Positions 4,432 to 7,389 of a stretch of 41,238 nucleotides of DNA are shown in pieces (within the stretch, counting starts at the first letter, position 1; each line of letters starts with the position of its first letter). Made by a program: the position numbers and the translations under genes. Source of the DNA: Ignavibacteriota bacterium (GTDB lineage: Bacteria > Bacteroidota > Ignavibacteria > UBA10030 > UBA6906). The DNA lies in assembly GCA_003158475.1 (NCBI GenBank), contig PMJR01000093.1, forward strand, positions 1 to 41,238. Reading direction: 5' to 3'. Under the pieces are notes generated by a model. It did not search any database. It had not been told where the DNA came from and saw only the letters and a list, made by a program, of their open reading frames with translations.

Positions 4432-4962
4432 TCAGTTGCCGGCCCGCTTCTTCATCAGTTCGTGGATAAGAACATCCTTGTTTGCCATCGAGATCTCCCG
4501 CCCCTGGATAGCGATGCCTTCGGTATTTCGTGCGAGAGTCCTGAGCTGGTGCACGGTCATCGCGTCGAGCTGGGCACCGTACTCCACATCATCGTCGCTT
4601 GCGACAAAATCAAATTCCTCTTCCTCTCCCTCCGGAGTGCCAGGCTGAGCCTCGGTCGGGAAAGACTCGGAGAGCGGAGGGGCCGGCGTGCGCTGCTTCA
4701 GTATACTTTCAATCTCATCTGAAGGGCGGGGGATGACATGCGTTGATACAAGCTGTCCGACACGCCGGGCGGCGGCCGCGCCGGCCTCCACCGCGGCGTT
4801 CACAGCCGCAACTTCACCGATAACCTCGACGGTAACGAGGCCGTTGCGGATGTATTCGGTCCCCAGGAGAGCCACATTCGCGGTCTTCACCATGACGTCA
4901 GCGGCCTCAATCGATCCGACGAGGCCGCGCGTTTCAACCATCCCCAGGGCGTAGTCCAGCAT
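4432..4962 (-). CDS. BMC-domain shell protein with C-terminal SAP/Rho-N-like extension
   Basis: The 176-residue product has one BMC domain (about residues 5-88; [20 protein letters not shown], then [21 protein letters not shown] and VSTHVIPRP), the fold of hexameric shell tiles of carboxysomes and metabolosomes. An acidic, disordered linker (about 90-130, with EGEEEEFDF) leads to a C-terminal unit (about 135-172: [11 protein letters not shown], then [16 protein letters not shown]) that resembles SAP or Rho N-terminal helix-extension-helix domains, often nucleic-acid or protein binding. Some known shell proteins (PduK, EutK) also carry extra C-terminal domains. Its ATG lies 3 bp after the stop of the preceding shell gene, so the two are co-translated. 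The BMC call is firm; the tail assignment is inference. Confidence 0.9.
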
Positions 4963-4965
4963 GAG

Positions 4966-5262
4966 CTATTTTGCGACGGGACGTTTGGGGAGAATCATCT
5001 CCACATCGGCATGAGGCCGGGGGATGACGTGGACGGACACAAGTTCGCCGACCCGTTGAGCGGCAGCCGCGCCCGCGTCCGTGGCCGCTTTCACAGCACC
5101 GACGTCGCCGCGCACCATTACCGTCACATACCCACCGCCGATTACTTCCTTGCCGATCAACTGCACCCGCGCCGCCTTGACCATTGCATCGGCGGCTTCA
5201 ATCGACCCCACGAGACCTTTGGTTTCCACCATTCCGAGTGCATCTAACGAGATGTCCGCCAT
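4966..5262 (-). CDS. BMC-H hexameric microcompartment shell protein
   Basis: The 98-residue product is a single BMC domain of normal PduA/EutM/CsoS1 length: [20 protein letters not shown] near residues 9-28, the pore-side region [18 protein letters not shown] near 40-57, and [10 protein letters not shown] near 76-84. Such proteins assemble into hexamers that tile the polyhedral shell, with a central pore for small substrates. The start at 5262 has AAGGAG ten bases upstream; an ATG at 5271 is too close to that site. It leads the operon from a predicted promoter at 5311-5341. No cargo enzyme, pentameric vertex protein or trimeric shell protein is found in the window. Confidence 0.95.
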
Positions 5263-5310
5263 TGGTGTCATTCTCCTTGTGAAGTGGCGTGAGGCCGGTG
5301 TCCGGGCAGG

Positions 5311-5341
5311 CAAATATACCCAAGCGCCGGCACATTGTCAA
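5311..5341 (-). promoter_or_regulatory. Predicted promoter of the BMC operon (TTG-N20-TATATTTG)
   Basis: On the minus strand TTGAC starts at 5341 and TATATTTG (5318-5311) follows 20 bp after the TTG. The -7 element is a perfect match to TAnnTTTG, the best in the window. It is about 50 bp before the ATG of the first shell gene, consistent with a constitutive, vegetative-type promoter rather than one requiring an activator. Confidence 0.7.
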
Positions 5342-5423: not shown

Positions 5424-5666
5424 CTATCGTACATAGAGAAGCTTCTCTGTCTTTACGGATTCCGCCGCTCTGAGGACGCAGAAATACATGCCTGATGCGA
5501 GAGCTGACCCGTCGAACCGGACCTCATGATATCCAGCCTCCTGCAGATGATCCATCAGTACCGCAACTTCCTGGCCGAGCGTGTTGTAGACGATGAGCGA
5601 GACTTCCCCCCTCCTGGGCAAACCGTACCGGATCGTCGTTGACGGATTGAAGGGATTCGGGTAATT
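5424..5666 (-). pseudogene. Stranded T9SS type-A C-terminal sorting domain
   Basis: Directly after the TAG at 5669-5667, in the same frame, the sequence continues NYPNPFNPSTTIRYGLP and then VSLIVYNTLGQEVAVL, GYHEVRFDGS, LASGMYFCVL and finally KLLYVR before a TAG stop. This is a complete 80-residue type-A sorting domain, which directs proteins through the type IX secretion system and anchors them at the cell surface. It belongs to the gene upstream: in related proteins the residue before NYPNPFNP is usually Gln, so the TAG most simply arose from CAG. As it stands the domain is translated only if the stop is read through or re-initiation occurs at an internal codon. Confidence 0.85.
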
Positions 5667-7370
5667 CTACTTCAAGACCAGCCCGGCAGGAATCTGGTCA
5701 TTTCCTTTTCCGCCGGTGGCCGTCACGCCGAGGGGGTCCTGTATGCTGTCGGGCATAGAGAGATAGACCTGCATGCTCTTTGTTTGTGCGGCGACAATGA
5801 ACACATACCAGGGAACCGGACTGGAGTATGTGTACGGGATTGGCACCACCGACGCGTACTCGTCGAGTCCTATGGCGGGGACCGTCGCGATGAAATCCCA
5901 CACTACTCCCGACGCCGCCAGCGGGATCGGAGCGACGCTATTTGGCCGGGCCGTTTGTCCCGGCGCGCCAGACCCGTTGACCCGTCGCCAGATGCTGTAC
6001 TGTGTCGCTCGATCAGGGGCACCCGCCGAATCGTCGGTGCTTCTCAGCCAGAGGATACGGGCCTGGGTGTAGTCATAGGGGATGAGACTGATCCTGACTA
6101 TGGCGGGCGCATGCGTCAGCCCGTACCCCTGGCCCGATACCGGCATGGAGAAGACCGGCGTGCGCGGGTCGTTTGTGGAAATACGGACCGTTCCGGTGTC
6201 AGGACCGGCCGCTACCGGCATGTAGATGACCCTGGCCGTCCGGTAACCGTAGCGCGGGACGACCGGGGCGTCCATCCTGAAGACGAAATTCCCGTTCGTC
6301 AGGGCGATGGGACCAAGACGCAACGAATCATGCGAACCCATATTCACGATCTGCACGGAAAGCGTGTCAGATGCGCCCACTTTCACTTTGCCGAAATCAA
6401 GAGATCCGGGCTGGACGAAAAAGATCGGCGTCGCGGAGGAATCTGTCGGGTACCTCGTCCTGAATACACCGGACCCGGCCGTCCCGACGAACAGATAGCC
6501 CTTCGGGTGGCAGAGCAGCGGAAGGACAGACGTTGTGGTGAGACCCCCGTTCATGACGATCCACGTTTTTCCCGTATCGCCCGACACAAGAATGCCGGCC
6601 CCCGATCGTGCGTAGAAGATATCCCCGCGGGGATTGAATGTGACTGACCAGGCATCCCCGTTCCACGAGACTCCGGTGTGCAGATCCGTCCAGGTCGCGC
6701 CGAAATCGGTTGAACGGAAGATCTGTGACGTCGTGGAGCTTGCGATATACGACCCGTCGGGATGAACGCCGTCAAACCCCAGGTTCGTGATGGGATGTGA
6801 ACTCCACGATGTCCCCTGGTCCGTGGATCTGTACAGCATCACGCCATCGTCCATTGCGATCGCCATGCTGCTGTCGAGGTAGACATTGTAAAAATAGCCC
6901 GGCTTGATAAGCGACCATGAATCACCGTTGTTCGAAGAACGAAACAGTCCCGATTCTGTTGCCACCCAGACGGCATTGCTCTTGTCGACGAAGCTCGTGC
7001 GCACGGTCAACGCTGTCAGGCCCGAATCCTCTTTTGCCCACGTCGTGCCGTTGTCGGTCGACCGGTACATGCCTTTCCCGTAGACGCTGGCAAACAGATG
7101 ATCGCGGGAGTTGCGCGAAATGGAAAGGACGGGGTTCGGGTCGGGGATCGCGCCGCATTGTGTCCACGTCCCCCCATCGTTCGTGGTCTTCCAGATTGTG
7201 CCGTCGTTCCATGTGCCTGCAAAGACAACGCCCGACGAATTTACTGCAAGGGACCGGACGTCAGAGGATACACCGGGACCATTGGTCGGCATCCAGAACG
7301 CATTCTGCGACCCGGCGTTCTGAACGATGATGCTGCAGAACAGCATGGCGATTATCGGTCTGAGTTTCAT
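5667..7370 (-). CDS. Secreted Asp-box beta-propeller protein, truncated before its T9SS tail
   Basis: The 567-residue product starts MKLRPIIAMLFCSIIV, a Sec signal peptide (cleavage near residue 20), after a GGGAGGAAAG ribosome site; longer starts lack a signal peptide. Residues about 30-305 form a propeller with six Asp-box/BNR motifs of S-x-D-x-G-x-T-W type (near 62, 103, 144, 181, 219 and 263), as in sialidase-like and sorting-receptor propellers. Residues about 318-416 resemble a choice-of-anchor D (ASPM/Hydin-like) immunoglobulin-type domain (SLDFGKVKVG, STNDPRTPVFSMPVSGQG). A further domain runs to the TAG at 5669-5667. The sorting domain then continues in frame (5666-5424), so the intact gene would give about 648 residues. 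Without that tail the protein would probably remain periplasmic. Substrate is unknown. Confidence 0.85.
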   Translation of the reverse strand: MKLRPIIAMLFCSIIVQNAGSQNAFWMPTNGPGVSSDVRSLAVNSSGVVFAGTWNDGTIWKTTNDGGTWTQCGAIPDPNPVLSISRNSRDHLFASVYGKGMYRSTDNGTTWAKEDSGLTALTVRTSFVDKSNAVWVATESGLFRSSNNGDSWSLIKPGYFYNVYLDSSMAIAMDDGVMLYRSTDQGTSWSSHPITNLGFDGVHPDGSYIASSTTSQIFRSTDFGATWTDLHTGVSWNGDAWSVTFNPRGDIFYARSGAGILVSGDTGKTWIVMNGGLTTTSVLPLLCHPKGYLFVGTAGSGVFRTRYPTDSSATPIFFVQPGSLDFGKVKVGASDTLSVQIVNMGSHDSLRLGPIALTNGNFVFRMDAPVVPRYGYRTARVIYMPVAAGPDTGTVRISTNDPRTPVFSMPVSGQGYGLTHAPAIVRISLIPYDYTQARILWLRSTDDSAGAPDRATQYSIWRRVNGSGAPGQTARPNSVAPIPLAASGVVWDFIATVPAIGLDEYASVVPIPYTYSSPVPWYVFIVAAQTKSMQVYLSMPDSIQDPLGVTATGGKGNDQIPAGLVLK

Positions 7371-7389
7371 TTTCTTTCCTCCCATGAGA

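Follow-up and report, generated by a model that had tools for sequence, protein, structure and literature searches.

In the window, by which we mean the whole stretch of 41,238 nucleotides that was analyzed, a minus-strand gene for a probably Sec-exported β-propeller protein carries an in-frame TAG directly before a complete type-A T9SS C-terminal sorting domain. We consider it very probable that this is a recent nonsense allele, in which a Gln codon has been changed to TAG and the propeller protein has been left without its outer-membrane signal. The case would be an ordinary one, i.e. one more secreted-protein gene deprived of its sorting signal by a point mutation, and its value, as an example of CTD loss in nature from an uncultured lineage of Ignavibacteriae-like bacteria, is modest.

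Reading frame and parts of the protein

The minus strand around the stop codon reads ...CTG GTC TTG AAG TAG AAT TAC CCG AAT CCC TTC AAT CCG TCA..., so that ...GLVLK is followed by TAG and then by NYPNPFNPST. Translation of the minus strand from 7511 to 5424 contained a single internal stop, located between ...IPAGLVLK and NYPNPFNPSTTIRYGLP. Between ATG 7370 and this stop the frame is uninterrupted, and 80 further codons are open behind it, up to ...KLLYVR and a second TAG. The initial annotation, which had noticed the TAG before the motif and a complete sorting domain, thus had its coordinates right. The listed open reading frame of the propeller gene begins at GTG 7511; the true start is likely ATG 7370, which has a GGAGG ahead of it and gives an N-terminus like those of both orthologs described below. 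The features are collected in Table 1.

Table 1. Features of the propeller gene and its sorting tail (window coordinates).
Feature	Position	Strand	Basis
GGAGG, likely ribosome binding site	7378..7382	-	read from sequence
Protein body, 567 aa from ATG 7370: likely signal peptide, β-propeller, Ig-like domain and family-less C-terminal region	5670..7370	-	
Likely Sec signal peptide MKLRPIIAMLFCSIIVQNAGS	7308..7370	-	alignment, by eye
β-propeller (BNR/YCF48/sortilin-like repeats), residues ~37-306	6453..7262	-	PF15902, 49.8 bits
Ig-like "choice-of-anchor D"/ASH domain, residues ~315-403	6162..6428	-	below cut-off in window protein
In-frame TAG stop	5667..5669	-	both orthologs have CAG (Gln) here
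80-aa type-A T9SS C-terminal sorting domain, continuing the frame after the stop	5427..5666	-	TIGR04183, PF18962
Second TAG, at which the original reading frame ends	5424..5426	-	sequence and count of tail-gene stops

The signal peptide is probably cleaved after A-x-S and before Q, an arrangement that follows the hydrophobic N-terminus in the window protein and in both orthologs (AESQ, ARSQ; alignment judged by eye). In addition to the match given in Table 1, the propeller gave weak matches to the PSII_BNR and BNR profiles. It also shows similarity to the xyloglucan hydrolase 2cn3. The propeller region is all beta in a predicted structure; the prediction was made from three sequences and has a mean pLDDT of 50, being fair for the propeller only. 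The Ig-like domain of the window protein reached 28.7 bits with NF012200 (cut-off 45) and 24.8 bits with PF15780 (cut-off 27), the latter cut-off being exceeded by one of the orthologs (that of genome G003). The sorting domain scored over the curated cut-offs of both TIGR04183 (38.4 bits, cut-off 23) and PF18962 (37.7 bits, cut-off 27), and owing to these scores the tail is not regarded as a chance open frame. Translated T9SS type-A cargo ends with this domain, as both orthologs do; here, a TAG stands in front of it.

Orthologs and the age of the stop

A search of 60 genomes (the window's own, G000, and 59 relatives) identified full-length orthologs in two genomes of the same genus, namely G003 (77% body identity) and G002 (55-56%), and the scan of the named genomes gave no ortholog beyond these two. 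Both are open through the tail and have CAG (Gln) at exactly the codon of the stop, so that the comparison with close relatives proposed in the initial annotation returned intact copies rather than stopped and tail-less ones. In G002 the ortholog has the YfhO gene on one side and the BMC-BMC-YbbR-PdxJ run on the other, as in the window apart from one extra gene, and on the short G003 contig the start of a BMC gene is found directly behind the propeller gene. The extra gene of G002 is methyltransferase-like (L173 5952-6977), lies between the propeller and BMC genes, and is missing in the window and in G003. The two BMC shell genes (window 4432-4962 and 4966-5313) are located between the propeller gene and YbbR/PdxJ, likewise in G002, and no microcompartment enzyme was found among the genes examined beside them. 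Within the window's own genome there is no second copy of the propeller gene, only distant body paralogs (~32% identity).

In the same genome, Gln precedes the motif in 85 of the 92 other parsed tails (74 CAG and 11 CAA), and the window tail is the only one preceded by a stop. Since Gln occupies the site both in the orthologs and in these tails, a single C-to-T change of a Gln codon would be the simplest history, as inferred from the relatives; the same change had been proposed in the initial annotation, on the premise that many proteins of this family have Gln before the motif, and the premise is borne out.

The tail itself has the appearance of a functional one. It ranked 61 of 95 (0 being the worst) by a leave-one-out family score, and departed from the family at three of 26 strongly conserved positions, whereas the other tails have 0-8 such departures. 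Its score of 192.2 lies below the family median but above the lower quartile (range 149-231), the family profile having been built with the other members themselves included, which slightly inflates their scores. In a simulation, ~3 bits were lost per neutral substitution and ~25 bits at eight substitutions; it is thus unlikely that the tail has accumulated many more than ~8 such changes (3% of sites) after the stop arose. An old pseudogene with a decaying tail was rejected on the basis of the tail rank, the few departures and the simulated score loss. Because the tail still scores like functional tails, the stop appears to be young, in agreement with the initial suggestion of a recent change behind which the tail is intact.

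The body sequences of the window and G003 have diverged with a dS of about 0.65 and a dN/dS of about 0.21, and to judge by the tail, the stop is young compared with the divergence of these two. From about codon 520 on, the third-position identity of G003 is ~0.57-0.69 to G002 versus 0.23-0.47 to the window, the reverse of what is seen in the body. Over the C-terminal ~130 codons (window 5424-5810 compared with L030 and L031), G003 groups with G002, and elsewhere with the window. This pattern points to recombination in the tail region in one of the lineages. Owing to the C-terminal mosaicism among the three species, directly comparing the window gene with its nearest ortholog does not give the age of the stop, and dating by the tail dN/dS between the window and G003 was discarded as unusable because of saturation and mosaicism.

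Decoding of TAG and stops before other sorting tails

TAG is a common true stop in this genome. It terminates 24 of the 93 tail genes, the window gene among them, and six of the 28 gene-like minus-strand ORFs of the window, which were chosen from a program-made list, so that a few of them may be spurious. Release factor RF1 was found with a score over its cut-off. Anticodon CUA was absent among 32 tRNA genes, a set without several expected tRNAs, so that this absence is no proof; one tRNA missed by ARAGORN reads CAA (Leu). No stable RNA structure beyond chance was detected around or behind the stop, the region folding less well than its shuffles (z = +1.88). None of the signs of recoding, i.e. 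a CUA tRNA, avoidance of TAG as a terminator or loss of RF1, was therefore observed. Genome-wide reassignment of TAG was rejected, as the same frame and the other TAG-ending tail genes terminate at this codon; a suppressor tRNA and a readthrough element were likewise set aside, given that none of the 32 tRNAs of the incomplete set has anticodon CUA and that no stable structure lies behind the stop.

A stop codon (TAR) directly before the exact motif was found in nine cases in 391 genomes of the class. In the 96 of those genomes that belong to the same order, the ratio of stop to Gln (CAR) before the motif is 5:7181, which also provides a rate for such events in the order. Three of the nine are isolated lesions in genes with a long uninterrupted body and the whole tail, namely the window gene, L174 (G333) and L176 (G108). 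The latter two resemble the window gene in having a TAG at the Gln codon, but are different genes in other genera and represent independent events. Five of the nine are in visibly broken copies, with very short upstream open frames together with further stops or shortened tails, and the remaining one is cut by a contig end. Such a spectrum is expected of genes at different stages of decay, rather than of a programmed signal; the idea that a stop returns to this codon by design was rejected, since the stops are rare, scattered over different genes and mostly in broken copies.

Four other sorting tails of the window's own genome also look broken or orphaned (L092, C88:16293; L093, C56:5511; L094, C145:27430; L091, C9:4295), the defects being a frameshift inside the tail and tails without an open body ahead. 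Additionally, L013 (minus strand, C94:2690) is a 134-aa open frame with a signal-peptide-like start and nearly nothing else but a sorting tail.

Interpretation and comparison with known T9SS cargo

Among the four options offered by the initial annotation, a recent nonsense mutation is the best supported. We propose that a recent substitution turned the Gln codon with which a type-A tail begins into TAG, within a single strain or population of a bacterium related to the Ignavibacteriae. Because the ribosome binding site, the likely signal peptide and the whole body are kept, a 567-residue protein would be expected to be made and exported by Sec to the periplasm. As it would have no outer-membrane signal, it should remain there or be degraded, by analogy with the gingipain RgpB. 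The gene would then be a loss-of-secretion allele, with a member of a large cargo family starting to become a pseudogene.

The only serious rival of the nonsense allele, and a less likely one, is that the TAG stems from an error of sequencing or assembly, or from the consensus of a strain mixture, and that the gene is intact in the organism. A single base accounts for everything and the tail is otherwise normal; moreover, the source assembly is fragmented (153 contigs), and an error or a minority allele would look identical in this one assembly of the species. Substitution errors are, however, rare in well-covered short-read assemblies. Similar stops are also encountered, if rarely, in other genomes, and five of the nine lie in genes that carry additional damage; real ones therefore exist. 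On balance, we regard an error as rather unlikely.

Far less probable are the two readings in which the stop is put to use. Readthrough or suppression of the TAG that is frequent enough to be useful, with a fraction of the molecules retaining the tail and arriving at the surface, might be suspected from a tail that is intact and in frame behind a single stop, and basal readthrough is never zero. The stop would then be kept with low-level readthrough, giving a mostly periplasmic propeller protein with little of a surface form, and the codon would be an evolvable localisation switch. Against such dual localisation, for which we see only a very slight chance, stand the orthologs without a stop, the presence of RF1, the lack of a CUA tRNA in the incomplete set and the absence of structure after the stop; the AATTAC that follows it departs from the known CARYYA context of readthrough, and strong suppression would extend many proteins, given the number of tail genes that end in TAG. 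Both TAG suppression and a switch between surface and periplasm, raised in the initial annotation, are disfavored on these grounds, and its proposed search for a suppressor tRNA(CUA) gene gave none among the 32 tRNA genes; programmed readthrough or a localisation switch finds no support. Equally improbable is an adaptive truncation, in which the population retains the protein in the periplasm and the tail no longer matters to selection. The start, likely signal peptide and body are intact, and the low body dN/dS to the nearest ortholog would agree with it, but this value mostly reflects the time before the stop, which is too young for body constraint to inform. Furthermore, nothing points to selection for the short form, and both relatives keep the tail.

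The secretion machinery that the tail addresses is present. The window's genome (3.7 Mb) has 106 sorting-tail matches, SprA was found over its cut-off, as adjoining pieces on one contig, and the PorU sortase scored 892 bits (cut-off 420); SprA and PorU thus indicate that the secretion system is there. The window gene has the same order of parts (likely signal peptide, β-propeller, Ig-like domain, tail) and the same neighbours as its G003 and G002 orthologs, which are T9SS type-A cargo with TIGR04183/PF18962 tails, but differs from this intact cargo in the TAG at the Gln codon, which places the tail outside the predicted product. Our literature searches returned no paper describing naturally occurring nonsense alleles ahead of a T9SS tail. 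Among the closest known counterparts is RgpB of Porphyromonas gingivalis with its CTD truncated by engineering, likewise a T9SS cargo deprived of its C-terminal domain. The protein without its CTD is reported to accumulate in the periplasm (PMC5445135), as it does after the loss of as few as two C-terminal residues (PMC11285876). Whereas those truncations were deliberate and tested, and found periplasmic, the one in the window is natural, belongs to another lineage and is known from its sequence.
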